Below are positions 34,171 to 52,945 of a stretch of DNA of 64,000 nt, piece by piece (the stretch's first letter is position 1; every line of letters begins with the position of its first letter). Origin of the DNA: Bacteroidota bacterium (lineage in GTDB: Bacteria; Bacteroidota; Rhodothermia; Rhodothermales; UBA10348); contig JAJCYQ010000052.1 of the NCBI GenBank assembly GCA_029262835.1, positions 1-64,000 on the forward strand, written 5' to 3'. The position numbers and the translations under genes are program-made. The notes beneath the pieces were generated by a model. It was not told the origin of the DNA, searched no databases, and saw only the letters and a program-made list of their open reading frames with translations.

Positions 34171-36879
34171 ATGGCCGACTACCCGTACCAGGATATCGAA
34201 TTGAAGTGGCAGAGACGGTGGGAGCGCGATAAGACGTTTCGCACACCTGCCCGTCCCGACACATCCCGCCCCAAGTTCTACGTGCTGGACATGTTTCCCT
34301 ATCCGAGTGGCGTGGGGCTCCACGTGGGCCATCCGCTCGGCTACATTGCTACGGACATTGTTGCACGCTACAAGCGCATGACAGGTCACAATGTGTTGCA
34401 TCCCATGGGATTCGATGCGTTCGGTCTGCCTGCCGAGCAATTCGCGGTAGAACACGGCGTGCACCCGCGCGAGACGACCGAGAAGAACATTGCCAACATG
34501 GTGCGGCAACTCAAGGCGCTCGGCCTGAGCTACGACTGGGACCGGGCCATTGCCACGACCGACGAGGACTATTACCGCTGGACACAGTGGATCTTCCTTC
34601 AGCTTTATAACAGCTGGTACGACGCCGAGGCTGGACGGGCTCGCCCTGTTGAAGAGCTCTCGGCCCGTCTGGCGGCCGAGGACGCGTCGTGGGACGCCAA
34701 AACTGACGCGGAAAAAGAAGCGGTACTCGGCGAGTATCGGCTGGCGTATCTGGCCGAGGTTCCGGTCAACTGGTGCCCTCAGCTTGGAACCGTGCTGGCA
34801 AACGAAGAGGTCACGAACGACGGCCGCAGTGAGCGCGGCAACTACCCGGTGTTCAAGCGACCACTCAAGCAATGGATGCTGCGGATCACGGCCTATTGTG
34901 ACCGGCTTGTGGAGGACCTGGACCTCGTTGATTGGCCCGAACCCGTCAAGATCATGCAGCGCAACTGGGTTGGGCGCAGTGAAGGGGCACACGTCGATTT
35001 TCGTATCGATGGACACGAACGTTCACTCCGGGTCTTCACGACGCGGCCCGACACGCTGTTTGGTGCCACCTACATGGTGCTGGCTCCCGAGCATCCGTTC
35101 GTCGACGCCATAACGACCCCGCAGCAGCGCGAGGCCGTCGCGGCCTATCGCCGCGAAGCCGCCGAGCGTACGGACGTGGATCGCATGGCAGACACAAAAA
35201 GCAAAACCGGCGTGTTCACCGGCGCTTATGCCATCAACCCGGCAGGTGATGTACGCATTCCCATATGGGTAGCCGATTATGTGCTCATGGGGTACGGCAC
35301 CGGCGCCATCATGGCTGTACCTGCCCAGGATGAGCGGGACTGGGCGTTTGCCAAAACGTTTGACCTCCCAATCGTCCGAACGGTCCAGCCCCCGGACGAT
35401 CACGATCCCGATACTCCGTACACAGGCGATGGACCCGCTGTAAACTCTGATTTCCTGGACGGACTGCACGTCGCCGAAGCCAAGGTGCGCATGATATCCT
35501 GGCTGGAGGAGCATGGACATGGAGAAGGAACGGTGACCTACAAACTGCGGGATTGGCTCTTCAGCCGGCAACGCTACTGGGGTGAGCCCTTTCCCATCCT
35601 TCATGGACCGAATGGTGAAATTCGGGCCGTTGATGAGGAGGAGCTCCCCGTCAAGCTTCCCCCGATGGAGAATTTCCGGCCCGAGGCCACCGACGACCCG
35701 GACGCGGCTCCGCGCACGCCACTGAGCCGCGCTCCGGCGGCCTGGCGTGAGGTGGAGATGGACGGCGAAACGTGGGAGCGCGAGCTGAACACCATGCCCC
35801 AGTGGGCGGGTTCCTGTTGGTACTATCTCCGTTTCCTGGACAACAGGAACGACGACGCATTCGTATCGGCGGAACTGGAACGCTACTGGATGCGAGATCA
35901 CGGCGTCGACCTGTATGTAGGAGGCGTTGAGCACGCGGTGCTGCACCTGCTTTACGCCCGATTCTGGCACAAGGTGCTTTTCGATCTGGGCCACGTCTCA
36001 ACGTCCGAACCGTTCGGTCGACTCTTCAACCAGGGCTACATCCAGGCCTGGGCCTACCGGGATGCGCGGGGCGTGGCGGTCGACGTGAATGACGTTGTGG
36101 ACCAGGACGGCCGACCGGCGGCAGACGTCCAGGATCAGCCAGGCAGGAAGTACTTCGCGCACGGCGAAGCCGTCACGCAGGAGTACGGCAAAATGGGCAA
36201 AAGCCTGAAGAATGCCGTCAGTCCAGACGAGATCTGCGAACTGTATGGTGCCGACACGCTTCGCCTGTACGAAATGTACCTGGGGCCGCTGGAGGCCTCA
36301 AAGCCATGGAATACGCGGGATATTGTCGGCGTCAACCGCTTCCTGAGGCGCGTCTGGAGAAACCTGGTCGATGCCGACTCTGGAGCATTGCTCGTCACGG
36401 ACAAGGACGCACCCCGGGACCTGCTTCGCGCCCTCCATAAGACGATAGACCGCGTTACGGCGGACATGGACCGCATGAGCTTCAACACGGCCATCGCCGC
36501 GCTCATCGAGTTCACATCCGAGCTTGTACCGCTGGCGGAAATTCCACGAGCCGTTGCCGAGCCCTTCGTCCTGTTGCTCTCGCCGCTCGCACCCCACATG
36601 GCCGAAGAGCTCTGGGAGCGTATGGGACATGCGTCCTCGCTTGCCTCCGAGCCCTGGCCCACGGCCGACCCTGCGCTGCTCCAGGATGACCAGATAGAGC
36701 TCGTCGTACAGGTCAACGGCAAAGTCCGAGGTAGTATCAGCGTTGCGACCGATGCCACCAAGGAGGATATCCTCTCCCTCGCCAAAGAGGACGAGAACGT
36801 ACAACGCCATATCGGTGGGCTCACGCTCCGACGCGAGATCCTCGTTCCCGGCCGCCTCGTCAATCTGGTTGTATCATGA
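34171..36879 (+). CDS. leuS: leucyl-tRNA synthetase
   Basis: This class I synthetase (902 aa) charges tRNA-Leu. The HIGH-type motif is HVGH in VGLHVGHPLGYIATD near residue 50, a connective/editing domain lies in the middle (VFTTRPDTLFGATYMVL, GYGTGAIMAVPAQDERD), and the KMSKS loop appears as KMGKS in EYGKMGKSLKNAVSPDE. The C-terminus has VNGKVRGSISV. Length is normal. The ATG follows a T-rich stretch after the repeat element, so its promoter may lie in or beside the element. bshB1 overlaps its stop by four bases. Confidence 0.98.
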   Translation: MADYPYQDIELKWQRRWERDKTFRTPARPDTSRPKFYVLDMFPYPSGVGLHVGHPLGYIATDIVARYKRMTGHNVLHPMGFDAFGLPAEQFAVEHGVHPRETTEKNIANMVRQLKALGLSYDWDRAIATTDEDYYRWTQWIFLQLYNSWYDAEAGRARPVEELSARLAAEDASWDAKTDAEKEAVLGEYRLAYLAEVPVNWCPQLGTVLANEEVTNDGRSERGNYPVFKRPLKQWMLRITAYCDRLVEDLDLVDWPEPVKIMQRNWVGRSEGAHVDFRIDGHERSLRVFTTRPDTLFGATYMVLAPEHPFVDAITTPQQREAVAAYRREAAERTDVDRMADTKSKTGVFTGAYAINPAGDVRIPIWVADYVLMGYGTGAIMAVPAQDERDWAFAKTFDLPIVRTVQPPDDHDPDTPYTGDGPAVNSDFLDGLHVAEAKVRMISWLEEHGHGEGTVTYKLRDWLFSRQRYWGEPFPILHGPNGEIRAVDEEELPVKLPPMENFRPEATDDPDAAPRTPLSRAPAAWREVEMDGETWERELNTMPQWAGSCWYYLRFLDNRNDDAFVSAELERYWMRDHGVDLYVGGVEHAVLHLLYARFWHKVLFDLGHVSTSEPFGRLFNQGYIQAWAYRDARGVAVDVNDVVDQDGRPAADVQDQPGRKYFAHGEAVTQEYGKMGKSLKNAVSPDEICELYGADTLRLYEMYLGPLEASKPWNTRDIVGVNRFLRRVWRNLVDADSGALLVTDKDAPRDLLRALHKTIDRVTADMDRMSFNTAIAALIEFTSELVPLAEIPRAVAEPFVLLLSPLAPHMAEELWERMGHASSLASEPWPTADPALLQDDQIELVVQVNGKVRGSISVATDATKEDILSLAKEDENVQRHIGGLTLRREILVPGRLVNLVVS

Positions 36880-37631
36880 CGTGCGATGTCGTTGCCTTTG
36901 CGGCCCACCCGGACGATGTCGAGCTTTTTGCCGGCGGCACGATCTGCACGCTCGTAGACCGGGGACACCGTGTTGGCCTGGTCGATCTGACGCGGGGCGA
37001 ACTCGGATCGCGCGGAACACCAGAACTCCGGAAGGAAGAGGCACGACGAGCCGCTCGCATTCTGGGCGCCAGTGTGCGTCTCAACCTGGGTATTCCCGAC
37101 GGCAACATCCAGGACACACACGAAAACCGTCTCCGAGTAATTCGTGCCATCCGAACGCTCCGATCCAGGATTGCACTCATCAATGCGCCCGAATGCCGGC
37201 ATCCAGACCACGTGGCCGCCTCCAGGCTCGTAGCGAGCGCCATATTCTACAGCGGGCTCACGAAAATCGAGACCCGAGGCGAAGACGGACAGCCACAGGA
37301 GCCCTGGCGGCCGCACCACGTACTCCACTACATCCAGTCCATCGAACTGGAGCCGACGCTGGTCGTCGATGTGTCACACGTCTGGGAACGCCGTATGCAG
37401 GCACTGCGGGCCTATGCCTCCCAATTCCACTCCTCCGAGTACGTGGCCGGGGCGGATGAACCCGAAACGTTCGTCTCCAACCCGGCCTTCATGGAATGGA
37501 TAGAGGCGCGCATGAAAGTCGCTGGATACCGCATCGGAGCCGCCTACGGAGAACCCTTCATTTACAGGCACGGCCCGATCGGTACGAATGACCTGTACGG
37601 CATGCTAGAGAAGGAGAAGCCGTTCCGCTGA
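36876..37631 (+). CDS. bshB1: bacillithiol biosynthesis deacetylase BshB1
   Basis: This zinc-dependent enzyme removes acetate from GlcNAc-malate, the second step of bacillithiol synthesis. The 251-aa protein of the LmbE/PIG-L family shows AAHPDDVELFAGG (residues 9-21) and the second metal/active-site motif ECRHPDHVAAS. The middle stretch DLTRGELGSRGTPELRKEEA is typical for BshB1. It is translationally coupled to leuS (ATGA). Together with bshC it indicates bacillithiol as a low-molecular-weight thiol. It converges with the secretion cluster downstream. Confidence 0.94.
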   Translation: MTCDVVAFAAHPDDVELFAGGTICTLVDRGHRVGLVDLTRGELGSRGTPELRKEEARRAARILGASVRLNLGIPDGNIQDTHENRLRVIRAIRTLRSRIALINAPECRHPDHVAASRLVASAIFYSGLTKIETRGEDGQPQEPWRPHHVLHYIQSIELEPTLVVDVSHVWERRMQALRAYASQFHSSEYVAGADEPETFVSNPAFMEWIEARMKVAGYRIGAAYGEPFIYRHGPIGTNDLYGMLEKEKPFR

Positions 37632-37665: not shown

Positions 37666-39585
37666 TTATCGCCGGTCCCACGTCAGAACGACGCGCCTGA
37701 CTCCGATATCGAGCGTAGGCAGATGCACATTCATGACACCTGTATCCTCATTGAATCGGGCTACGCCGTCGCCGCCGGCCACGCGCATGTTGCGGAACGA
37801 CTCGCCTCCCATCTTGATTTCAAGTACGGCGCCATCTACCACCGATTCACTGTCGTTATGCACGTCAATGTGCAGTTCCTGGCCGGAACGGGACACGACC
37901 AGCGGACGGATACTCTGCCGCTGGCGCCACCAGATGACGGCGTCGCTCACCGTCGCAATCCAGGCCCGCTCCTTGCGCGCTCGGGCAATGGTCCGTTCGA
38001 AGTCGGCGGCGCTCGTCGAGCGCGCGGAATACGTTTCCGGGTAGTAAGGCAATACGTAATGACCATTCACATCCCGCACGAAGCGGTAGGTCTCCTCGAA
38101 CGAAGGCGCAACTCCGTCTATGATTGACACCGAGATGACCCGGTCAGGCTCCACGCGAGGGGCTGGTGGCTCTGGGGCGTTTGACCGGGCGGCGGTCTCC
38201 TGGCCAGGCACGAAAAGCGCCAACTGCGGCTCCTCTGGCACCTCGGCTTCTTCAATCGTTTCGCGGTAGTCCACATATTCCCACCAGTCCACTTCTCCCG
38301 GAGACCAACTTGTGAGACCCGGCAGTATGAGGTAGTCCACACTGAGGTCATCGAGGACGCGGAGCGTATTGCCGTCGAAGAATCCACCCGGTGGATATAT
38401 ACCGTGGAAGGTTTCAATACCCATGTCGCGCTTTGCCCTCAGAATGCGCTCACGTTGTATTTCCATGGGTTGTCCTTTAAGCACGCGATCGCTCTCGGCC
38501 GTGAGGCCAACCTCGCCCATCCCAATGAGCCGGTTGCGCAGATCGTTGAGCGCGGAAAGTTCGCTGGACGTGAGATAGAAGCTGGCCGGCACACGCGCCG
38601 TTTCGAGCAGGTCAAGCAGTTGCTCGGTTCCGTTCATGAACGAAAGTGGATCAAAACCCACCGTGGGCAGCGCGGCGACGCTGAGCGCCATGGGCGCGGC
38701 ATTCGGCCAGGGAGCCACCGACACGCTGAGCCCCCCTACCATGTCGACCATGGCGTTCACCACCAGGCGCTGCCACATGTACTGCTGAATATCTTCCCGC
38801 GATATTTCGTGCGCATGGAAACGCGTCCATAGTACGCGACCGTCCTCCTTATGGTTGTACACGGCCGTCGTCAGTGAGTCGAAGGCCGCCTGATCGGCGG
38901 GTTGATACGTGACCACGCGCCCAAGTCCCAGTGCCTCGACGGGCCTGGCGGCCACAAGCGGCTGCTGGGCGGCGACGTTCAGCTGAAAACCTGGATCCAC
39001 GCCGGCCGATACAGGACCACGGCCGGTCAGGCTCTGCAGGTATCCAAACGGTTGGGAGGGAACGTTCTCCACGTACTCCGACCCCAGCATCGAGCGGAAA
39101 AAGTCCCCGCCCTTGCGATTTCCTTCCTCGTCGAACACGCCAAAGCGTCCCGACACGATCAAATTACCGCCGTCCTCTACATACTCACGCAACCGCCGTT
39201 TCTGACGGTCAGAAAGGGCTTCGGCAACGGGCATGACAACGATATCCCAGTCCCGGTCCAGACGACCGGATATAGCACGATCGTCGACGATCTCATACGG
39301 TATGCGCAGGCCGAGCAGCAGCAACTCCCAGAAATAGACGGCATCTTCAACAAGTCGCGGATTACCACCTACGTACGTGGCCGTCTGCTCCGAGCGGTAG
39401 AGCGCCAGGCGCGGTCGCTTGTCGGTGAGCAGCTGGGACAGATCTGTCGCGACCGTTCGAGCGGGGGCCTGCACACTTACAAATTTATGCACAGGCTGGG
39501 CGGCGGCAACCGGAACCAGGAAAAGCCCGGCCACAAGCAGGGCAACGGGCATAATTCGGCGATATGTGGACGCGATCCTACTCAT
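37666..39585 (-). CDS. exported GATase-like / degenerate polysaccharide-deacetylase protein
   Basis: This 639-aa protein has a signal peptide (about residues 12-29) and lies at the 3' end of the secretion cluster. Residues about 50-260 look like a class I GATase-like domain (RPRLALYRSEQTA, DWDIVVMPVAEALSD, LREYVEDGGNLIVSG). Residues about 300-560 resemble a NodB-type deacetylase, but the usual FDDG appears as TVGFDP and the HxxxH metal motif as GEVGLTAES, so catalytic residues seem lost. A C-terminal beta domain follows. The start overlaps the upstream paralogue by eight bases. It may bind or guide polysaccharide rather than deacetylate it. Confidence 0.65.
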   Translation of the reverse strand: MSRIASTYRRIMPVALLVAGLFLVPVAAAQPVHKFVSVQAPARTVATDLSQLLTDKRPRLALYRSEQTATYVGGNPRLVEDAVYFWELLLLGLRIPYEIVDDRAISGRLDRDWDIVVMPVAEALSDRQKRRLREYVEDGGNLIVSGRFGVFDEEGNRKGGDFFRSMLGSEYVENVPSQPFGYLQSLTGRGPVSAGVDPGFQLNVAAQQPLVAARPVEALGLGRVVTYQPADQAAFDSLTTAVYNHKEDGRVLWTRFHAHEISREDIQQYMWQRLVVNAMVDMVGGLSVSVAPWPNAAPMALSVAALPTVGFDPLSFMNGTEQLLDLLETARVPASFYLTSSELSALNDLRNRLIGMGEVGLTAESDRVLKGQPMEIQRERILRAKRDMGIETFHGIYPPGGFFDGNTLRVLDDLSVDYLILPGLTSWSPGEVDWWEYVDYRETIEEAEVPEEPQLALFVPGQETAARSNAPEPPAPRVEPDRVISVSIIDGVAPSFEETYRFVRDVNGHYVLPYYPETYSARSTSAADFERTIARARKERAWIATVSDAVIWWRQRQSIRPLVVSRSGQELHIDVHNDSESVVDGAVLEIKMGGESFRNMRVAGGDGVARFNEDTGVMNVHLPTLDIGVRRVVLTWDRR

Positions 39586-41878
39586 CGGGTGTCATGGCAT
39601 CGACCAGGGGGTCGCCGAGCAGATCAATGTGGAAAATGCGGTACTGCTGCGGCTTGAGTTCGCGGATGGACAGTTCGAGGACCGTTCCGTTCTCTCGAAG
39701 CCGGTACGGCGGAACATCCACGTTGTCGGGTACCGGTTTGAAAATATTGATCAGTTCGGGGCGCACGTTCACCGACGTAACGCGACGTCCCAGCGCAATC
39801 GATACGGTCGCTTCCTTGGCGGTATGGCCGTTGTCGTTCGATACGCGGACAAAAATACGCGACGGACTGCGCTGCTCAACGTCTGCATTGAGACCACGCT
39901 TCAGACGCCACCACAGGGCCACAGAATCGCCCGATGCCACCCAGAAGTCACCATCCTTAACGCCTCCGAGCAACGTTCGCATGGTGGCCAAGTCCATCTG
40001 CTCCGGATCATAGACCAGATTGTACAGGCCGCCTTCGTATTTGACACGTTCCAGGTCCTCCAGCATGAGACCGGTGAGCAGGTCTCGGCTATCCTCTTCG
40101 AGACCGTCAAGGATGTCGCTCTGTTGTTTTACGGTGGTACCTATACGTGTCAGCGTTTCATACGGAAATCCCATGATCTTCGGCGCTATACGGCGCCCAA
40201 TGGAGTCCGGCAGGAAATAGGTATAGTCGGCACGAACCAGACCGCCCATTGTGTTGATACCGACAATGCCACGCTCCGTCGAGCGATAGCCCTGGACGGG
40301 CCCACGTACAAGATCTTCCAGGATGAGTCGCAGGCGTCGGAGCCGGTCTCCCTGGTCGTCTGGGAGTCCATCGGACTCCACACGGAGCGTGTCGTATACG
40401 GCGACATCCCCCTGCCGGTGCAGACGCTGGAGCAGCGATGTGTACGGCCCCGCCTCCTCCGGTTTGACCAACCAGGTCCCGGGAATACCTACGTCGTCAA
40501 GCGCGTCGGCGATGGGTCCAAAACGCTGGATGCCCGCGGGCGACTCGGCAGCGCCCACTACCATGGCGGCCGCATCATAGTTGTACGGCCAATCGTGGAC
40601 CCAGATGGTTGGCAGGCGCCTCAGGTAATTGAGGGAATTCCGGAAATAGAACTTGAGTGCCTCCCAGTCTTCCGCGTCTTCCGGGCCAACACCCATGGCG
40701 TTGCGCTGGAAGCCCATATATATGAACCGACCTTCTCCGTATTCGCCGTAGACGACACTGCTCGATTCTTCAATCTGGTTGAAGCCGACCAGGTCTTCCG
40801 TAGCAAAATCGAACCAGAATGCTGCTGGTTTGGTGCGATCTTCCACGACGCGGACTTTGACACCCGGGTTGTAGACCTGGATTTTTACGCGGTAGCCAGG
40901 TGCAATCTGGGCCGAAATGGGCGTTCCGGCCCGAATCGTCATGCGACGCACACCACCGCTCGTCCGGGGGAACGGAATCTGATCCCCGATACCGCGACCC
41001 GTCCACGTAAAATAGGATACAACAACAGCATCCTGCTCTCGAAGATCACCATTCATATCCCGGAGCTCGGCACGGATCTGGCGGGCACGGGCCCAGTCCA
41101 CGGTAGGTTGGGCCGAATTCAGCGTATCGAACCAGACGTAATCCTGGAGCGGCGGGAAATCAAAGGTTTCAGCCCTCTCCGCCTGTATCTCCCGGAAGCG
41201 CTCGTGGGCTTCGTCTCCCGTGGTAGGCGGGATGAAGCGATCCGACTCTGTCAGGTAACGGGGCAGGTAAATCCCGTCCATCATCTGCCCGGGAAACGTA
41301 TCGGCGTAGACGCGAAAATTCCCCTGTCCCCGCTCGACAAAACCTTCAAACTGGACACCAAACGTTTCCTCCATGAAACTCCAGCCTCGCCACGAACCGT
41401 CTGGACGATAGAGACCGGGCGTCCAGGTTGCCATCACGCTGCCACCATTCTCCATGAACTCCTGTACGCGCTGGATCTGCAGATCGCTCATGGCTCGCGT
41501 AGACGGAAGAACGAGTACATCATAGCCCGACAGGTCCCCATATTCGAGGTGGTCGTCGCTGATGTCTTCAAACGGGATCAGTGGCGTCTGATTGAGGAAA
41601 AACTCGCGCCAGGAAATGAGGGTCTGATCGACCCAAACCGTACTTGTATCGCGCAGATTAAGGATGCGATGTGTACGACGGGTATAGTCACTGTTGAGCA
41701 GGGCCACGCGGGGCCGCGTATCGATACCGATACGGGCGGGCGATGCCTCCCTGATACTGAATGCGCCGAGTGCACTCTCGAGCAGCAGGATATACACGAG
41801 GATTCCTGCCGCCAGGGATGTTACTCCAAGCGTCAGGAACCATATCGTGCTGATTTTTTCAAGTTGAAGGGTGCGCAT
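39578..41878 (-). CDS. membrane-anchored paralogue: GATase-like / degenerate deacetylase-like protein
   Basis: This 766-aa protein has one N-terminal membrane helix (about residues 12-35) and then follows the plan of its downstream neighbour. A GATase-like domain covers about 55-400 (RPRVALLNSDYTRRTHR, GYDVLVLPSTRAMSD, VQEFMENGGSVMATW) and a NodB-like region about 440-690 with VGAAESPAG and GDVAVYDTL where metal-binding motifs would be. Both proteins share a fold end of the kind DFWVASGDSVALWWR, arguing for tandem duplication. It begins six bases after the small Gln-rich gene. Function is inferred only from context: polysaccharide handling in the periplasm. Confidence 0.62.
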   Translation of the reverse strand: MRTLQLEKISTIWFLTLGVTSLAAGILVYILLLESALGAFSIREASPARIGIDTRPRVALLNSDYTRRTHRILNLRDTSTVWVDQTLISWREFFLNQTPLIPFEDISDDHLEYGDLSGYDVLVLPSTRAMSDLQIQRVQEFMENGGSVMATWTPGLYRPDGSWRGWSFMEETFGVQFEGFVERGQGNFRVYADTFPGQMMDGIYLPRYLTESDRFIPPTTGDEAHERFREIQAERAETFDFPPLQDYVWFDTLNSAQPTVDWARARQIRAELRDMNGDLREQDAVVVSYFTWTGRGIGDQIPFPRTSGGVRRMTIRAGTPISAQIAPGYRVKIQVYNPGVKVRVVEDRTKPAAFWFDFATEDLVGFNQIEESSSVVYGEYGEGRFIYMGFQRNAMGVGPEDAEDWEALKFYFRNSLNYLRRLPTIWVHDWPYNYDAAAMVVGAAESPAGIQRFGPIADALDDVGIPGTWLVKPEEAGPYTSLLQRLHRQGDVAVYDTLRVESDGLPDDQGDRLRRLRLILEDLVRGPVQGYRSTERGIVGINTMGGLVRADYTYFLPDSIGRRIAPKIMGFPYETLTRIGTTVKQQSDILDGLEEDSRDLLTGLMLEDLERVKYEGGLYNLVYDPEQMDLATMRTLLGGVKDGDFWVASGDSVALWWRLKRGLNADVEQRSPSRIFVRVSNDNGHTAKEATVSIALGRRVTSVNVRPELINIFKPVPDNVDVPPYRLRENGTVLELSIRELKPQQYRIFHIDLLGDPLVDAMTPDE

Positions 41879-41884
41879 GAGGGC

Positions 41885-42391
41885 TTAGAGCCAGGCGAAA
41901 CCATCGTCCTGGCCCTGCTGGGATTGTTTCTTTTCGTCTTCCTGGCGGGGCTCGTCGGGACGAACGGGGACAAATCCTTCGTCAGTGTACTCCCAGAACA
42001 ATGAGTTCTGCTGCGAGGGCTGGGCAACCTGCGGGACGTGGCTGGGCACAGCGGTAGGCTGATCCTGCTCGGTGTCATGCTCGTCGCGGGCCGCATAGCT
42101 ACCCTGCGAACCCTGTCCGCCCTGTGCACCTCCGACGTAGACATTCGTCTGGGGCTGCTGCTGCCATTGGGGCTGCTGCTGCCACTCTGCCTGTTGGTGC
42201 GCCCCAATCATCTGCGGCTGCTGCGGAGCAACAAGCACGTGGGGATCGGGAGCCACCTGATGCTGAACGTCACCACTCTGCTGGGCGCGGCGCTCGCGGA
42301 TTTTGTAAAGCACGTAGGCAGCAACGGCGAGAATGAAGGTCGCAATAGTACCTACGAGAATGATGGTAGAGAGAATCGGAACGAGTTCCAT
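41885..42391 (-). CDS. small membrane protein with Gln-rich cytoplasmic or periplasmic tail
   Basis: This 168-aa protein has one membrane helix (about residues 5-30, ILSTIILVGTIATFILAVAAYVLY) and then a charged stretch KIRERRAQQ. A long low-complexity tail with tandem WQQQPQ units and Gln/Pro/Gly-rich sequence follows, and the C-terminal segment FWEYTDEGFVPVRPDEP might be a short interaction motif. No family is recognised. Its place between the glycosyltransferase and the deacetylase-like pair suggests an accessory or scaffolding subunit of the secretion complex. The positive residues after the helix favour the tail being cytoplasmic. Confidence 0.6.
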   Translation of the reverse strand: MELVPILSTIILVGTIATFILAVAAYVLYKIRERRAQQSGDVQHQVAPDPHVLVAPQQPQMIGAHQQAEWQQQPQWQQQPQTNVYVGGAQGGQGSQGSYAARDEHDTEQDQPTAVPSHVPQVAQPSQQNSLFWEYTDEGFVPVRPDEPRQEDEKKQSQQGQDDGFAWL

Positions 42392-42574: not shown

Positions 42575-44095
42575 TCAGGCCTGTCGGGCGCCGGTACCGA
42601 TACGTTCCAGTTTACCCCAGTTCATACCGAATCCAAGAAATTCCTCGATCGTGGCAAACGTCTTGCAAACGTCAATGATGAGAATGAAAAACAGCCGGTA
42701 GAACAGGGAATAGAACACCAGTCGGATTTCTTCCTTCTCCACCGCTATACAGTACAGAGCCGCTACAAGGTCCAGGAGCGTCAGCGACAGCCACCAATAC
42801 ACGAGATAATAACTCATGTTGAACACCACGGCGATGAAAATGAAGTAGGCGTTCGCAAACACGTTCATGATGGGCCAGATCAACGACTCGAAGGCCATGG
42901 ACCACATGACAACCGTACCACCGAAATTGATTGTGGGGTTGAAGAACAGGTCCTTGTGTTTACGTACAGCCTGCAGAATGCCACGCGTCCAGCGGTAGCG
43001 CTGCTTGAGCAGATCCACAATCCGATCCGGCGCCTCCGTATAGGACTTGGCGTCGGGCTCGTACTCAACGCGCCAGCCGGCACGCAGGATCTTGAGCGTG
43101 ATGTCCGCATCCTCCGCGAACGTGTCAGAGCTGTACCATCCCGCATCCAGAATGGCCTGCTTGCGGAACAGGCCGAGCGGACCGGGAATGATGTTCACCA
43201 GCTTCACAATAGACTGCGCCGAGCGCGCCATGTTCAGGCCCTCCACATACTCGAGTGCCTGTAGCGTCGTCCAGATGTTGTTCCTGTTGAGCACCTTCAC
43301 GTTGCCCGCTATGGCACCCAGACGGGGATCCACAAAATGGCGTATGGCTTTGCGTAGCGTATCGGGAGACAGCTGGGAGTCACCATCCACGTTCAGCACA
43401 AAGTCAAAGCGTGACATCTGGATTCCGGCATTGAGTGCCGTGGATTTTCCGCCGTTGTTCTTCTCCACCAGGCGGACCTCGACGGCTCCGTCCCGGTAGT
43501 GCCCGACAAGCCGACGGGCTTCCTCGCGCGTATCATCGGTCGACCCGTCGTCGACCACCAGGATTTCGAAGTTCGGGTAGTCCATCTGCACGAGCGACAT
43601 GACGGTCGACTGGAGCAGCTTGCCTTCATTGTAAGCGGGCACGATAATGGAAATGCCTGGCAGGAAATTCGTGTCGTGTCCGGTTTTCACCGTATGCCGC
43701 ACCGTATTCAGGTAGGCCAGGTTCATGAGCGACAGATACCGGAACAGCAGGATGACCAGAAACAGCACAAGCGCCACAATGGACGAATACACGATCAGAC
43801 CACTGCCACGCAGATTGGAATTCCATCCCGTCAGTCGAAAGAGATATCCCCCAGGATCATAGAGGAAAATGTAGATCAGGGCGAACAGAGCGAGTGACAG
43901 GAAGCCGAACAGGAAGACCCGCCGGAACAGCGACTCCTCCGTCTCGGCCGCCGTTGGCAAGTCATCTTCCCGGCGACGCACCGGTGTGAACGGTGTGCGC
44001 GTCACCGGAATGCCGGAGGAGGTCACGCTCAGATCGGTCGTTTGTGACGACGGCGTCCGGGTATCTTCTGATATGTTGGGCGAACGATCGGCCAT
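42575..44095 (-). CDS. processive family-2 glycosyltransferase (polysaccharide synthase)
   Basis: This is an inner-membrane synthase (506 aa). A disordered N-terminus of about 50 residues precedes two membrane helices (about 58-78 and 100-120), the GT-A catalytic domain (about 147-380) and three or four C-terminal helices. Processive-enzyme motifs are complete: DDG at 182-184, DGD at 237-239, ED at 328-329 and QRYRW at 365-369. The closest known architecture is PgaC/hyaluronan-synthase type; there is no PilZ domain as in BcsA. The gene lies 15 bases after the TPR-barrel gene. The sugar is unknown. Confidence 0.9.
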   Translation of the reverse strand: MADRSPNISEDTRTPSSQTTDLSVTSSGIPVTRTPFTPVRRREDDLPTAAETEESLFRRVFLFGFLSLALFALIYIFLYDPGGYLFRLTGWNSNLRGSGLIVYSSIVALVLFLVILLFRYLSLMNLAYLNTVRHTVKTGHDTNFLPGISIIVPAYNEGKLLQSTVMSLVQMDYPNFEILVVDDGSTDDTREEARRLVGHYRDGAVEVRLVEKNNGGKSTALNAGIQMSRFDFVLNVDGDSQLSPDTLRKAIRHFVDPRLGAIAGNVKVLNRNNIWTTLQALEYVEGLNMARSAQSIVKLVNIIPGPLGLFRKQAILDAGWYSSDTFAEDADITLKILRAGWRVEYEPDAKSYTEAPDRIVDLLKQRYRWTRGILQAVRKHKDLFFNPTINFGGTVVMWSMAFESLIWPIMNVFANAYFIFIAVVFNMSYYLVYWWLSLTLLDLVAALYCIAVEKEEIRLVFYSLFYRLFFILIIDVCKTFATIEEFLGFGMNWGKLERIGTGARQA

Positions 44096-44110: not shown

Positions 44111-47100
44111 TCAGAGCGTCCAGTAGAGTGCCCCGGAGAAGGTGAACGTATTGTACTTGTCGATGAAGGAGGTGGCCCCGGATCCCAGGGTACGGGTCGA
44201 TGCCCCCATCGATGTGGACAGCGTCAGCGACAGCTTGTCGGCCACACGCTTGATGTAGTCCGCCTCAAAGCGCCGGGAAATAAATCCACTGCTCTGCGCA
44301 ATAATTCCCATGGCGCCGCGCAGACGGATGTACCAGTTCTGCGGCAGCTCCTTTTCGTACTCGAGGAAGAAATCGTACACCTGGTAGTCACGCGGTGAAA
44401 AGTAGATGTCGACCGTCGACCGGTACTGCTGGTTGTAGTAGGTCATACCGAGATAGGTATGATCGACAATTTTGTACCCCGCCTCAAGCTGGATGACCGT
44501 ACCGAAGTTTGTGTCGCTGTTGCTTGCCGTATTTCCGAAGTTGTCTCTGACGACGTTGAAGGCAATGGAGCCGTTCACGCGCAACACGGAGTCCGGCATG
44601 ATGGATACGGACGAACCCTTTACGTCGAACTGGGTCAGTTTGAGATTGAACTGTCCACCGGCGGGCGACCAGAGATCAATAGATCCCTCGCCCGTGCGCA
44701 GACCCACAGACCCCTCGTACCGACCCAATTCCTGCCGCCAGTACCGGATGCCACCATACACGACCGTTCGTGCACCTTCATAATCGTACAGCCCTACTTC
44801 TCCCGAAATCCGATTCGAATAGGACGCCCGGTCCGACTGTACCGGCGGCGTCAGGTCTACATAACCGCCTGTAAAAATCTGGTTCACGCGGCCGCGGACT
44901 ATTTCAGAGCCCGGTACCAGGCGGCGCGAGCCGCTGATGAAATGCGACGTCACGCCCGCCGTGAGGACCGTGTTGATGGGCAAAGTGACCTGCGTCTGCA
45001 TTCCCTGGGCCCACCTGTCGTACTGCGTGCCGCCACCACGGGAGCGTGTCGCGTTGGACGTCGGCACAATCACGCCCGCAAAGTCGTATCCCGTCCATTC
45101 GCCGCTTTCGGCGACGGCTGCTCGGATGTCGCCGTCTATGCCCACGACACGGTCCTCCACGTAGTCGGAATTTTCCGCCAGATTCCGGGCTTCATTGTAG
45201 ATGGCCTGGGCCTGTACATACATCCCGAGTTGCCGCAGCGCTTCGGCCTGCATGAATCGAACCTCATAGTCGCGTGGATTTTCCGCCTGCAGACGCTCCA
45301 GTGTGGCGAGCGCACCGGAGTAGTCCTCCCGGGTAATCTGGGTGCGAGCCATTTCCTTGGCCACCGGATACTCCCACTTTTGTTGCATGAGCGCCGTGAA
45401 TATGGACAGCGACTCGTCAAAATCCCCTGCTGCAGCGAGGACCTGGGCATATTCGACCAGTTCACCGCGCGTGCGCTTACCGCGTACCTCGAAGTAGCGT
45501 TCATACGAAGCGACAGCCGCCTGGTACTGTTTCGCAGATACCTGGCGACGGGCTTCGTTGAGGACGGCAGTCTGCTCTTCCTCGTTCATACGCATCCGCT
45601 CCCGTGCCACAAGGTGTTTTAGCGTGTTGATACGCCCAGCATATTCGTTCTGGTCGAGAGCTTCGAGCCGCTCAATCAGCGCATCGGCGTCGTCGACCCG
45701 GCGCGTGGCCAGTCGGTAGCTCGCCGCTTCGAACAACAGTTCGGGATCCTGCGCGCCCGGGCCTGCGAGCAACGCCGACAGGAACGACTCGCCACGAGCA
45801 TCGAGGTGACCGTTCGCAAACAGGGTCATGACGTAGAGACGCTGGATATCAGGATTGGCAGAGTCACGGTCAGCCAGCCAGCGCGCCTGCTCGACAGCCT
45901 GGGCCGGGTATCCGCCCAGACGCAGCGCATTGATATAGGCCGCGCGAATCGCATGGTCTTCCGGTCGCAACTCGATGAGCCGCACATAGGCACGGATGGC
46001 ATCGTCGGAGCGCCCAACAATGTTGTAATTCGCGATGATTTCCCGAAGCGCCGCCACGTTGTCAGGGCTATCGGCCAGAACGAGCGTGAGTTCATCGATC
46101 CGCTGACGAGCCATCGTCTGGCGCGTGCGCTCAATGGATTCGAGCCGCGCCTGGTATCCGGGGTCGGTCGGGTCGGCATAACGCGGATCAATCAATGTGT
46201 CGTAGGCCTCGGCGTAGCGTTCGGCTGCGACGAATTCATCGACCAGATTGTAGCGCGTCTGTCTGTCAGCCGGATCGGCACGCAACAGAAACGTAAGCCG
46301 GTCAATCGGATAGATGGGCGATGCGCCTTCCTGACGGGTCAGGCCCTGGTCCACCTGGACGAACGCGCGCAGCCAGCGATCGGTCGTGCCGAAATCCTCC
46401 TCCAATACCAGCAGTTCATCATAAGCCTCGAAGAAGCGATCATACTTGATGAGCGCCTCGGCGAGATCAAAACGCAGTTCATTGTTGGACGGCGACGCAG
46501 CCACAGCGCGCTGGAGCCTGTCCACAATGAACATGGATGGTCCCTGCTGCGAGGCGGGCTCCGTCTGCAACCGGTTTTCAACGAGGCGGAAGCGCTCCGT
46601 CCAGGCTGTAGTATTGCGATGGCGGGGAGCCAGGATGTCAAGCTGCTGCCGGGCCTCGAAATAGCGGCCGGCATCGACGAGCAGGTCCACGAGGCGAAAG
46701 CGCGCGTCGTCGTCTGACGGATTGGCATTGAGTTCGCGAAAGAGGACGTCGATCGGGTACTGGGACAACTGGTTGCCGCCGGCCAGCCCGGGATCCTGCG
46801 ACGTTGCCAGACAGTCCTTGGCTTCCCTGTTCGACGGATTGAGACGAAGCGCCTGGTCGCACGCTTCCTGGGCCAACTGGTACTCGTTCTGCCACAATCG
46901 GAAATACCCGAGCCGCATCCAGAGATCATCATTGTTGCTGTAAATGCGCGTATACTTTTCAGCCACGCGCTCGCCCAGGTCGTTGTCTCCCTCATAGCCC
47001 GCTATGGCGATCAGGTAGGACTGCACGATGTCGGGCGTTCCCTGGGTCTCTTCCAGGTACTCTCCATACTGCTCGGCTGCCGCCCGGAACTGACGCGCCG

Positions 47101-47536
47101 AAAAAAGGGCATCCGCATAGCGGATTTTGTACGCCAGGTTGCTCGGATTGAGTTCGACCAGGCGACGCAGACTTTCCAGGTTCGATGCATTGTCGGCCGG
47201 GGCCTGCTGGCGCTGCTGAACACGGCGCAGTCCCGTGAGCGCCTCATTCGACCCCGGGTTGAGTTCAAGAGCCTTCTCGTAGTCACGAGCGGCTGAGGGA
47301 TAATCCCCGCGCCCTTCGTGCGCCTCCGCCCGCAACAGGAACAGCCGTGCGTCGCGCGTGTCGGACGTAATGACCGCATTGAGCACAACGATGGCCTCGC
47401 TGTACCGGTTTTCCTCAAGCAGCTCGGCTGCCCGCTCCTGCGCGACAAGGTCCTGTGCCCCAGCAGGCATCACCGCGAGGATGCCAAGCAGGGATACAAA
47501 AAACAGCGTCAATATGGAGCGGCCCGTCTTCATCAT
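44111..47536 (-). CDS. TPR protein with C-terminal outer-membrane barrel (BcsC/PgaA-like exporter)
   Basis: This 1141-aa protein has a signal peptide (about residues 1-27, ending PAGAQ). A long array of TPR-like repeats follows to about residue 830 (for example RGDYPSAARDYEKALELNPGS and NEYQLAQEACDQALRLNPS). The last 270 residues are beta-rich with alternating aromatic strands (ARTVVYGGIRYWRQELGRY, YQVYDFFLEYEKEL) and look like an outer-membrane barrel. This plan is that of BcsC and PgaA, which carry polysaccharide across the periplasm and outer membrane. Its ATG overlaps the stop of the upstream regulator gene. The barrel is inferred from pattern only. Confidence 0.8.
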   Translation of the reverse strand: MMKTGRSILTLFFVSLLGILAVMPAGAQDLVAQERAAELLEENRYSEAIVVLNAVITSDTRDARLFLLRAEAHEGRGDYPSAARDYEKALELNPGSNEALTGLRRVQQRQQAPADNASNLESLRRLVELNPSNLAYKIRYADALFSARQFRAAAEQYGEYLEETQGTPDIVQSYLIAIAGYEGDNDLGERVAEKYTRIYSNNDDLWMRLGYFRLWQNEYQLAQEACDQALRLNPSNREAKDCLATSQDPGLAGGNQLSQYPIDVLFRELNANPSDDDARFRLVDLLVDAGRYFEARQQLDILAPRHRNTTAWTERFRLVENRLQTEPASQQGPSMFIVDRLQRAVAASPSNNELRFDLAEALIKYDRFFEAYDELLVLEEDFGTTDRWLRAFVQVDQGLTRQEGASPIYPIDRLTFLLRADPADRQTRYNLVDEFVAAERYAEAYDTLIDPRYADPTDPGYQARLESIERTRQTMARQRIDELTLVLADSPDNVAALREIIANYNIVGRSDDAIRAYVRLIELRPEDHAIRAAYINALRLGGYPAQAVEQARWLADRDSANPDIQRLYVMTLFANGHLDARGESFLSALLAGPGAQDPELLFEAASYRLATRRVDDADALIERLEALDQNEYAGRINTLKHLVARERMRMNEEEQTAVLNEARRQVSAKQYQAAVASYERYFEVRGKRTRGELVEYAQVLAAAGDFDESLSIFTALMQQKWEYPVAKEMARTQITREDYSGALATLERLQAENPRDYEVRFMQAEALRQLGMYVQAQAIYNEARNLAENSDYVEDRVVGIDGDIRAAVAESGEWTGYDFAGVIVPTSNATRSRGGGTQYDRWAQGMQTQVTLPINTVLTAGVTSHFISGSRRLVPGSEIVRGRVNQIFTGGYVDLTPPVQSDRASYSNRISGEVGLYDYEGARTVVYGGIRYWRQELGRYEGSVGLRTGEGSIDLWSPAGGQFNLKLTQFDVKGSSVSIMPDSVLRVNGSIAFNVVRDNFGNTASNSDTNFGTVIQLEAGYKIVDHTYLGMTYYNQQYRSTVDIYFSPRDYQVYDFFLEYEKELPQNWYIRLRGAMGIIAQSSGFISRRFEADYIKRVADKLSLTLSTSMGASTRTLGSGATSFIDKYNTFTFSGALYWTL

Positions 47537-49086
47537 ACTTCATCAAGTGCATAGGTGAGGAAATCCGATACGGATTCGAACGGCTTGCCGTCTGGCACGA
47601 CGATGGCCGATACCGAATGCAATAGATGATCGGCCTGTACGGGAGATTCTGAACGCAGGCGGTCTTTGAGACGCGCAAAGAAACGCTGGGCCTGATCGGC
47701 CGGGCTGTCCGCCAGGAAAATGACGAGGCGCTCACGCTCGGGCTGGACCAGCATGTCATCTTCTGCGCGCAACTCCTCACGCACCAGATCCATCAGGAAA
47801 TCGAAGTCGAACGGACGCGCCGACGTACCGTCCTTCTGGTCCATGCGAAGCGCGAGGAGCAGGAACGGACGTGACGCCTCGTCGCGCTGTGCGAACAGTG
47901 GCGAGAGGCGCGTTTCAAAACGGGTACGGTCAGCATAGCGCGCATTCGGATCCTCATCGGACTCGGAGTCCCGCGGAGGCGGAGCTGGTGGCTGCACCGG
48001 ATGCTGAGGCGGAGCCGGTGGCTGTACCGGGTGCTGAGGCGAAGCCGGCGGCTGCACCGGATGCTGAGGCGAAGCCGGCGGCTGAACTGGGCGCTGCTGT
48101 TGCGGAGGGGCCGCAGGTGGTTGTGCCGGAAACTGTTGCTGTGGAGGGGCCGGAACCGGCGGCTGCGCCGGAGGCTGGGGCGGTAGTTTTGCTGGCTGCC
48201 AGGGGCCCTGTGGGCGGGGCTGCCGCTCCTGCTGGTCAGGCCATGCCGGCACGTCTGATGACGGTACAAAACTCCCCGCCGTGTCGTCCCATGCAGGGGG
48301 CTCATCCTGCCATGAAACCGGCTCCTTTCGAGATGGAGCAGGCGGTGTCGCGGCAGGCGCATTGCGAAAATCGTCACCATTGGCCTCAATGAGGTCTTCC
48401 AGGTCCCAATAGTCCACAACCTGCCGTTTGATATGGCCAATATGTGGTACAAGTGTGATACGACGCTTCGTTGTCGACGGATTATCATCCGCCAGCTCAA
48501 TATGCATGGAGCCGGTCATCTGACTTGCCATGAACTCGATTACCCTTCGCGACTGCTGATTTGCCGGCTCTGGCATAACGAGCATGGTCGTTGTCTCGAG
48601 CGTATCGATCTGCTCCAGAAACTGAATAAATTCGTTGCGGAACCGGTCAAACGATCGAAAAGCCACAAATGGCATGAAGTCGTTCATGATAAGCCGCGTG
48701 GGACGATGCTGACGAATCAGATTCACGAGGTCCCAGAGTGCACCGGCTACGCCGTCATCGCCCATATTCTGCAGGTTCATCAGCGGCGGAACGCGCATGA
48801 GACGTACGACACCGGACTCATAGGCATCCCGGAGATTAAAACCTATTGATGCCGCCTGGATCATCAGGTCTTTGTGCCGGTCGGGCGACACGAACAGTAC
48901 AGGCTCACCCAGCCCAGCCCCCATATGGGCAAAAGCCAGTGTGAGCAGACCACGACCGCTGGCCGCGCGTCCGTACACGAGGTAGGATCCGCCGCGGTAG
49001 AGACCGCCCCAGGCGTTATCGACGACGTCGATACCTGACTGATGTTTAGGAGCGAAGCTCACGGGTGATATAGACGATGCGTTCAT
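47533..49086 (-). CDS. BcsE-like regulator: RecA-like domain with degenerate GGDEF domain
   Basis: This is a 517-aa cytoplasmic protein. Residues about 15-235 resemble a RecA/KaiC-type ATPase, but the P-loop reads GRAASGRGL (39-47), lacking the Lys and Thr/Ser. Residues about 245-375 are a Pro/Gln-rich linker with four decapeptide repeats. Residues about 383-517 fit a GGDEF fold in which the signature is PERER (449-453) while RAED (440-443) keeps the RxxD inhibitory-site pattern exactly five residues upstream. Inactive cyclase with a c-di-GMP receptor site is the best inference. BcsE of cellulose systems combines similar parts. It is the first gene of the cluster. Confidence 0.7.
   Translation of the reverse strand: MNASSISPVSFAPKHQSGIDVVDNAWGGLYRGGSYLVYGRAASGRGLLTLAFAHMGAGLGEPVLFVSPDRHKDLMIQAASIGFNLRDAYESGVVRLMRVPPLMNLQNMGDDGVAGALWDLVNLIRQHRPTRLIMNDFMPFVAFRSFDRFRNEFIQFLEQIDTLETTTMLVMPEPANQQSRRVIEFMASQMTGSMHIELADDNPSTTKRRITLVPHIGHIKRQVVDYWDLEDLIEANGDDFRNAPAATPPAPSRKEPVSWQDEPPAWDDTAGSFVPSSDVPAWPDQQERQPRPQGPWQPAKLPPQPPAQPPVPAPPQQQFPAQPPAAPPQQQRPVQPPASPQHPVQPPASPQHPVQPPAPPQHPVQPPAPPPRDSESDEDPNARYADRTRFETRLSPLFAQRDEASRPFLLLALRMDQKDGTSARPFDFDFLMDLVREELRAEDDMLVQPERERLVIFLADSPADQAQRFFARLKDRLRSESPVQADHLLHSVSAIVVPDGKPFESVSDFLTYALDEV
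47971..48090 (-). repeat. 30-bp tandem repeats coding a Pro-rich linker
   Basis: Four consecutive units encode the decapeptide pattern PVQPPASPQH (residues 333-372 of the regulator), the last two with Ala-Pro-Pro variants and the final one ending PPR. The DNA units are 30 bp and nearly identical, so copy number may vary between strains. They lengthen the flexible tether between the RecA-like and GGDEF-like domains. Confidence 0.85.
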
Positions 49087-51286: not shown

Positions 51287-51310
51287 TTCGTGCATGCGTA
51301 TATTGCGTGC

Positions 51311-52945
51311 ATGGATACTGACCTTACCTCAATTCAGCAGGCCCGCACGCTCGTAGGCCGGGCCCGCGACGCCTTCACCTCGTGGCACACGTTCGATCAG
51401 GACGCCGTGGACCACGTCGTGCGTGAAATGGCCCGTGCTGGAGAGAAGGCTGCTGCCGAGCTGGCACGGCTGGCCCATGAGGAGACCGGCTTCGGCCGCG
51501 TGGACAGCAAAACAGAAAAAAACCTGTTCGCCACACGGACGCTGCTGTCACGCATTGAGGGCATGCGCACATGTGGCATCATAGACCGCAATGGGCCTGT
51601 CTGGGAGGTCGCCTCGCCGATGGGTGTGATAGCGGCACTCATCCCGTCCACCAACCCGACGTCCACGGCGCTATACAAGGCCATCATCGCCGCAAAGGCG
51701 CGGTGTGCCATCGTCATGAGCCCGCATCCGCGCAGTGCCCGCTCGACGGCCGAAGCCCTACGCGCCGTAGCCGATGCCGCCTACCGGGCAGGCGCCCCCG
51801 AAGGACTTTTCGCGTGCCTCACGGAAATATCGCTCGAAGGTACGAACGCCCTGCTTGAGCACCCGGGCACGGATCTCATCATTGCCACCGGCGGCAACGC
51901 CATGGTGCGCGCCGCCTACTCCAAGGGAAAACCCGCCTACGGCGTTGGATCGGGCAATGTACCGGTCTATGTGGATCGCTCGGCGGACATCGAAAAAGCT
52001 GGACAAGACCTCGTATACGGAGCGTCGTTTGACTGGGGAACGCTCTGCTCCACAGAGCGGAGCGTGGTGGCCGACGTCCCGATTGCCGCCGCCCTCAAGA
52101 CCGCCATGCGCTCAGCCGGTGCCTGTTTCCTGAACGAGCGCGAAACCGACGCGCTGCGCCAACTCGTCCACACCGGTGGCAGGCTGAACATTGAGCAGGT
52201 GGGCCAGTCGCCACAGCGTATTGCACAACTTGCCGGGTTCGAAGTGCCCGCCACAGCGCGCGTGCTCGTGGCGGAAGTCGAGGCTATCGGACCCGATGAG
52301 CCCCTTTCCATGGAGACACTCTCCCCCATCCTGAGTTGGTACCGCGCCGATGGTTGGAAGGCTGGATGCGACGCATGCAAACGGATCCTGGCGCATGGCG
52401 GCATGGGACATACACTTGGGCTGCACGCACAGAAGGAATCTGTAATCGAGGCCTTCGCGCTCGAAAAACCAGCCATGCGGATCGTCGTGAACACGGTCGC
52501 CGCACTCGGCTCGGTAGGCCACACGACCGCACTGTTTCCCGCCATGACGCTGGGACCCGGCACGTTCGGCGGCTCCATAACGAGCGACAATATTTCACCC
52601 ATGCACCTTGTCCAGATCAAGCGTCTGGCCTTCGAGACGAAACCCATTCACGAGGGAAAAACACCAGCGGTGGGTGCTGGCACCTCGTCCCGTACGCACC
52701 GATCATCGTCCCTCACAGATGCCGCAGGTACGGGCAGACGGAAAACAACCCCGTGGATGGACGAGATCGAGGCTCGACTCCGGGAACGTGCGGGAAGCCG
52801 ACCTTCGCCGCCCCGCAGTCAGGAGTTACCCGCGCAGAAGGCCGAGTCCGCACCACGACCAGAACCCACTCGCGGAGACGAAGTGGATGGAGCCCTGGGG
52901 GAAGAAGCCATTGAGCGCCTCATTGCCCGGTTCGGCAAGGCATAG
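51311..52945 (+). CDS. CoA-acylating aldehyde dehydrogenase (EutE/PduP-like) with C-terminal tail
   Basis: This enzyme is expected to convert an aldehyde, CoA and NAD to acyl-CoA. The catalytic core (residues 1-449 of 544) contains SPMGVIAALIPSTNPTST, the glycine-rich ATGGNAMV, YGVGSGNVPVYVD and the nucleophile C246 in WGTLCSTERSVV. Residues 450-527 are a Ser/Pro/Arg-rich linker and the last 17 residues (ALGEEAIERLIARFGKA) form a likely amphipathic helix, like microcompartment encapsulation peptides. ATG 51311 is chosen; an in-frame GTG at 51290 would add seven residues. There is no adjacent alcohol dehydrogenase or shell gene. Confidence 0.87.
   Translation: MDTDLTSIQQARTLVGRARDAFTSWHTFDQDAVDHVVREMARAGEKAAAELARLAHEETGFGRVDSKTEKNLFATRTLLSRIEGMRTCGIIDRNGPVWEVASPMGVIAALIPSTNPTSTALYKAIIAAKARCAIVMSPHPRSARSTAEALRAVADAAYRAGAPEGLFACLTEISLEGTNALLEHPGTDLIIATGGNAMVRAAYSKGKPAYGVGSGNVPVYVDRSADIEKAGQDLVYGASFDWGTLCSTERSVVADVPIAAALKTAMRSAGACFLNERETDALRQLVHTGGRLNIEQVGQSPQRIAQLAGFEVPATARVLVAEVEAIGPDEPLSMETLSPILSWYRADGWKAGCDACKRILAHGGMGHTLGLHAQKESVIEAFALEKPAMRIVVNTVAALGSVGHTTALFPAMTLGPGTFGGSITSDNISPMHLVQIKRLAFETKPIHEGKTPAVGAGTSSRTHRSSSLTDAAGTGRRKTTPWMDEIEARLRERAGSRPSPPRSQELPAQKAESAPRPEPTRGDEVDGALGEEAIERLIARFGKA

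Follow-up and report, generated by a model that had tools for sequence, protein, structure and literature searches.

KG, a 517-aa protein encoded at positions 47533–49086 of the window (the entire 64,000-nucleotide stretch of DNA analyzed here), combines a KaiC-like domain with a degenerate GGDEF domain and heads an operon that is conserved in Rhodothermales and Ignavibacteria, members of two distant classes. On balance, and with modest confidence, we read KG as a BcsE-like cytosolic scaffold or regulatory subunit of synthase-dependent polysaccharide secretion in these lineages, whose c-di-GMP function has been lost or replaced.

Domain architecture of KG

The reading frame of KG coincides exactly with that given in the preliminary description, from which the strand was missing; the gene lies on the minus strand and starts with ATG (Table 1). 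KG is well conserved, and the earlier observation of a degenerate RecA/KaiC-like domain fused to a degenerate GGDEF fold is real, agreeing with Pfam, structural models, and Foldseek. Residues 16–187 match Pfam KaiC (4e-15), KaiC matched the N-terminal domain at 4e-27 when a profile was run by hmmsearch against PDB sequences, and nearly all of the best 50 Foldseek matches of the full-length model were KaiC or KaiC-like proteins covering that domain. KG thus has an N-terminal fold and sequence in common with the KaiC and KaiC-like ATPases (PF06745), while it differs from KaiC in its single KaiC domain, its degenerate Walker A, and its fusion to a degenerate GGDEF domain. Although KaiC is the closest family, and an intact GKT occurs in 3 of the 44 aligned Ignavibacterial sequences, it is most improbable that KG acts as an active KaiC-type ATPase or as a switch cycling with nucleotide. 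The P-loop position reads G39-RAASGRGL, without Lys and without Thr/Ser as previously stated, so that GRAASGRG stands in place of the Walker A consensus GxxxxGK[ST] of the KaiC ATPase. Arg has replaced the Walker A Lys in each of the 18 Rhodothermales sequences and in 41 of the 44 from Ignavibacteria, where the motif is mostly GPRKSGRT; the Thr/Ser has gone from most of the 18 aligned Rhodothermales sequences, and the catalytic Glu pair of KaiC is not conserved in the alignment. The linker behind this domain holds a 30-bp tandem repeat of 3.6 copies (TRF; window 47976–48084) that encodes PASPQHPVQP-type units.

Table 1. Features of KG and of the genes of its operon in the window
Feature	Position	Strand	Basis or remark
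KG protein: KaiC-like pseudo-ATPase, linker, and degenerate GGDEF domain	47533..49086	-	ORF and translation; Pfam KaiC 4e-15, GGDEF_2; model pLDDT 80
N-terminal RecA/KaiC-like domain, ~residues 13–238	48373..49050	-	hmmsearch against PDB; Foldseek
Degenerate Walker A GRAASGRG, residues 39–46	48949..48972	-	Alignment, motif reading
Pro/Gln-rich disordered linker, residues 241–379	47950..48366	-	pLDDT mostly <60; TRF
GGDEF-like domain, residues 383–517	47536..47940	-	AlphaFold model of C-terminal domain; Foldseek
I-site-like RxxD (RAED), residues 440–443	47758..47769	-	Position and conservation
PERER in the place of GGDEF, residues 449–453	47728..47742	-	Translation, alignment
R472, at the position of a further I-site arginine (PelD R402)	47671..47673	-	65% conserved; equivalence inferred from spacing
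TPR protein, 1141 aa, probable outer-membrane porin C-terminally (BcsC/PgaA/PelB-like)	44111..47536	-	TPR families; barrel predicted from sequence
Processive synthase of the GT2 family, 506 aa, without a PilZ match	42575..44095	-	DDGS, DGD, AED, QRYRW motifs
168-aa single-TM protein, strongly conserved anchor, tail motifs FWEYTDEGFVP and terminal W	41885..42391	-	Putative BcsF/PgaD-like role
GATase-like membrane-anchored envelope protein B	39578..41878	-	Weak GH42M match; alignment
GATase and polysaccharide-deacetylase-like exported protein A	37666..39585	-	Profile matches; alignment

The C terminus of KG matched Pfam GGDEF_2 at 7e-5 with 23.5 bits, just under the curated cut-off of 24.5, and GGDEF_2, GGDEF, and PelD_GGDEF were the three commonest Pfam matches of this domain among 62 family members. 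Because Foldseek with the full-length model returned KaiC-type matches, which belong to the N-terminal domain, the C-terminal domain was modeled separately. The AlphaFold model of this domain alone (pLDDT 87, pTM 0.84) found only GGDEF or PelD structures with confidence, and these made up all of the best 25 Foldseek matches, among them PA0575 (E 2e-5), PelD (4dmz; 8e-5, TMq 0.68), PleD, YfiN, and a T. maritima GGDEF domain. Residues 380–517 have the topology of a GGDEF domain, and the structural check that had been proposed for residues 383–517 thus gave a GGDEF-like result, with PelD 4dmz showing the highest TM-score among solved structures. As judged from the Pfam matches and the predicted structure, the likeness to GGDEF is more than chance. 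A profile search of the PDB with the C-terminal domain yielded only helices of AP-2/AP-1 adaptors (E 2e-4), which we rejected as spurious since the matches were partial and helical. The GG[DE]EF signature of active diguanylate cyclases is absent, being PERER in KG and missing from all the family members that were read.

Conservation of the I-site-like motif

The motif itself is as it had been described: R440-A-E-D443 is followed after exactly five residues (DMLVQ) by P449-ERER, with LVREEL and LVIFL as the flanks. Because KG, which is rich in Arg and Asp, holds six RxxD strings, four of them within the C-terminal domain, the RAED string alone is weak evidence; it is noteworthy through its position directly before the β-hairpin that replaces GGDEF. 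KG and 14 of the 18 aligned Rhodothermales sequences have an RxxD at this distance of five residues from the GGDEF position, and none from Ignavibacteria does; homologs of the latter keep D443 and have no Arg at 440. Conservation in the non-redundant Rhodothermales set amounts to 70% for R440, which ranks 60th of 135 columns, 85% for D443, 65% for R472, and 95% for R453; the middle positions 441 and 442 vary while R440, D443, and R472 are mostly kept. Given its 70% conservation in Rhodothermales and its absence in Ignavibacteria, R440 is a lineage feature and not an invariant functional site. The I-site-like motif of KG is probably an inherited one.

Enzymes and sensors of cyclic dinucleotides in the genomes that carry KG

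The preliminary description had proposed that KG is a c-di-GMP receptor. In such a case, c-di-GMP would bind to R440, D443, and R472 and activate secretion, as it does through PelD, which requires R367, D370, and R402 (PMC2170427), and through BcsE. The fold and register are right for this role, most Rhodothermales sequences keep the RxxD, and Arg472 could be the partner residue. The Arg missing from the Ignavibacterial homologs speaks against it, however, as does the distribution of the enzymes. The GGDEF family (PF00990) was searched for in 394 genomes of the phylum. The host genome, which is 97.6% complete, contains no GGDEF, EAL, PilZ, or HD_5 (HD-GYP-type) domain, and the PF00990 search found GGDEF in neither of the two other members of the host genus. 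GGDEF is missing from 15 of the 16 Rhodothermales genomes with a strong KG match, the exception being G183, where it is present in an intact GGDEF-EAL protein, a point in favor of the receptor. Conversely, ten genomes of the order have a GGDEF match, and nine of them are without a strong KG match, leaving G183 as the sole overlap. PilZ gave nothing above the cut-off in the 18 genomes searched, EAL matches in the search on the Rhodothermales side were confined to G183 and G231, and HD_5 was found in 4 of the 16 Rhodothermales carriers (G183, G030, G179, and G250); the searches picked up the control genomes as they should. In the 37 KG-bearing Ignavibacteria, GGDEF gave one weak match each (E 3e-9 to 5e-15), and EAL was absent from all 33 that were searched. 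The seven weakly matching proteins that were read are all degenerate, with ~620–650 aa and no GG[DE]EF (e.g., GRLDERLFGVYFF); this conserved Ignavibacterial protein (L111–L117) thus supplies its carriers with a degenerate GGDEF domain besides that of KG.

As no enzyme known to make c-di-GMP is encoded in the host, this nucleotide is most likely not the ligand of KG. With GGDEF lacking from the host and from all but one of the other 15 Rhodothermales carriers, and with R440 only 70% conserved in Rhodothermales and absent in Ignavibacteria, the receptor claim was not borne out, and reception of c-di-GMP by KG is improbable. Since the host and nearly all of its KG-carrying relatives lack the enzymes that make or sense c-di-GMP, KG probably serves as a scaffold or else receives a different ligand. 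One might imagine that the site is a reassigned I-site and that KG receives a different nucleotide, such as c-di-AMP, ATP/GTP, or a product. The diadenylate cyclase domain (PF02457) is encoded in all 16 KG-bearing Rhodothermales genomes, which, together with the retention of the three residues beside variable positions 441 and 442, makes c-di-AMP a possible, putative ligand. Diadenylate cyclases are, however, widespread, and their presence therefore says little; moreover, the Arg is lost in Ignavibacteria, and no c-di-AMP receptor is known to have a GGDEF-like fold. A receptor with such a reassigned ligand seems unlikely to us, if still worth considering.

The operon and its small membrane protein

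The operon begins with KG, whose stop codon is overlapped over 4 nt by the TPR/porin gene; the genes of the GT2 synthase, the 168-aa single-TM protein, and the GATase/deacetylase-like protein or proteins come next. When bacterial and archaeal genomes were scanned and 80 KG loci retrieved, 52 of these had all six genes together, and most of the remaining loci break off in the flank or contain the operon incompletely. The nearest NCBIfam model of the GT2 is PgaC, with 196 bits, under the cut-off of 422. In Ignavibacteria, queries with A and B both land on one and the same gene; the paralogous pair of Rhodothermales (window 37666–41878, minus strand) may reflect duplication or fission. Where the flank is long enough, almost every Ignavibacterial locus carries a GH9 cellulase gene directly upstream of KG, at a distance of ~130–220 nt (L064:8163–9821 and its equivalents in L051–L110), which is absent from the Rhodothermales loci; in some Ignavibacterial loci, a GDSL/CBM35-like protein is encoded between the TPR and GT2 genes. 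The QxxRW GT2, TPR exporter, deacetylase-like proteins, and GH9 are those of a synthase-dependent polysaccharide system, for which secretion is predicted, and the assignment of KG to a polysaccharide-export operon thus holds by gene content. In the literature that we searched, the operon is not described.

Members of the 168-aa family share an anchor that hardly varies, MELIPILSxIILVATISTFILAVGAYILYKIRERK, followed by a disordered middle part, the conserved motif YTxEGY, and a W at the end. The only Pfam match of the window protein at E<=1 was DUF5849, below the cut-off, and NCBIfam gave no match. The protein is present in 49 of the 394 genomes of the phylum, every one of which has a strong KG match, and strong KG matches occur in 53 genomes.

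Three lineages have KG without an orthologous GT2 or TPR gene, namely G030 and G179, which are single-contig genomes, and G336 (loci L119, L120, and L121, respectively). The genes that flank KG in the window also adjoin the orphan copies in G030 and G179, and the copy of G030 keeps the RxxD and R472. KG may therefore have a job outside the operon, and in these lineages it has either a second role or the status of a surviving remnant. The extreme case, in which the primary role of KG is unrelated to the polysaccharide operon and the gene is merely encoded beside it, is nevertheless rather doubtful, considering the strict adjacency of KG to the TPR, GT2, and 168-aa genes in two distant classes and its co-occurrence with the 168-aa protein.

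A few further observations concern these loci. An EutE-like acylating acetaldehyde dehydrogenase is encoded beside KG (window 51290–52945, plus strand) and also adjoins KG in L121. Loci L100 and L101 come from a metagenome-assembled genome labeled Tenericutes that has the Ignavibacterial operon on two contigs and is probably mislabeled or mis-binned. The minus-strand ORFs 35023–35994 and 36135–37328, which are antisense to 34171–36879, were set aside as mechanical.

Possible function of KG in polysaccharide secretion

The domain folds, the degenerate catalytic motifs, the conserved operon, and the near-perfect co-occurrence of KG with the 168-aa protein are established here and support a scaffold. 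We infer that KG works like BcsE: its pseudo-ATPase and pseudo-GGDEF domains would hold the membrane-bound GT2 together with its small tail-anchored 168-aa partner, whose tail would dock on KG, and this assembly would activate the synthase and thereby switch on or stabilize export through the TPR/outer-membrane protein. The GH9 gene beside KG in Ignavibacteria, by analogy with BcsZ accompanying Bcs, may be taken to support the scaffold. On the other side, the RxxD kept in most Rhodothermales could mean a real ligand, and HD_5 in 4 of the 16 carriers, the intact GGDEF-EAL protein of G183, and the orphan KG lineages also weigh against this reading. A bolder idea, which we offer tentatively, is that a receptor domain descended from GGDEF was kept in the absence of c-di-GMP enzymes and took on a new ligand or a purely scaffolding role, by which it controls an undescribed Bcs-like polysaccharide secretion system of Rhodothermales and Ignavibacteria.

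BcsE and PelD link polysaccharide export to c-di-GMP, and in KG a module of this kind stands first in an export operon of lineages without c-di-GMP enzymes. KG is a natural test of whether the degenerate GGDEF domains of export systems act chiefly as scaffolds or as receptors, and its locus bears on the regulation of secretion systems after the loss of their messenger. It also puts a name to a conserved, uncharacterized polysaccharide locus of two poorly studied classes, one product of which is a small protein whose membrane anchor is strikingly conserved.

Comparison with the Bcs, Pel, and Pga systems

The proposal that KG is a BcsE analogue stands with respect to the parallel architecture of degenerate NTPase and GGDEF domains and fails with respect to membership of the BcsE family by sequence. 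BcsE is composed of NTPase*, REC*, and GGDEF* domains (asterisks denoting degeneracy), the first of which was modeled on KaiC and the last of which is closest to PelD (PMC7439463). Like BcsE of the type II Bcs system of E. coli (PF10995), KG has a KaiC-like degenerate NTPase and a degenerate GGDEF with RxxD, but a disordered, Pro-rich linker takes the place of REC*. PF10995 does not match KG at E<=1, whereas E. coli BcsE scores 757 bits, and sequence similarity is not significant; hhalign comparisons with a single E. coli BcsE sequence, which have low power, and with a single E. coli BcsF gave nothing significant, and an hhalign alignment of the C-terminal domain in register with BcsE R415-TGD was discounted as evidence at a probability of 0.2%. 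Unlike BcsE, KG resides in a host without c-di-GMP enzymes and without a PilZ synthase. The locus resembles type II Bcs in its GT2 synthase, TPR outer-membrane channel, cellulase, and a small protein with a single TM. The small protein of Bcs, BcsF, recruits BcsE via a cytosolic tail that extends the NTPase* sheet (PMC11470070). By analogy, KG could be paired in function with BcsE, the 168-aa protein with BcsF, TPR with BcsC, GT2 with BcsA, and GH9 with BcsZ.

PelD (PF16963) is similar to KG in the fold of the C-terminal domain (TM-score 0.68), in the I-site-like RxxD, and in a partner synthase without PilZ, while its TM/GAF N terminus is replaced in KG by the KaiC-like domain, leaving GGDEF* as the only domain in common. 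In streptococci, a genus without c-di-GMP enzymes, PelD has lost its GGDEF domain (PMC7112168), whereas KG kept its GGDEF-like domain, and this retention suggests a structural or new role. The Pga/Ica system (PgaA, PgaB, PgaC, and PgaD) is matched by the PgaC-nearest GT2, the TPR outer-membrane protein, the deacetylase-like protein, and the small TM protein of the KG locus, which differs in the presence of KG, in a GH9 enzyme where Pga has the PgaB hydrolase, and in the one TM of its small protein.
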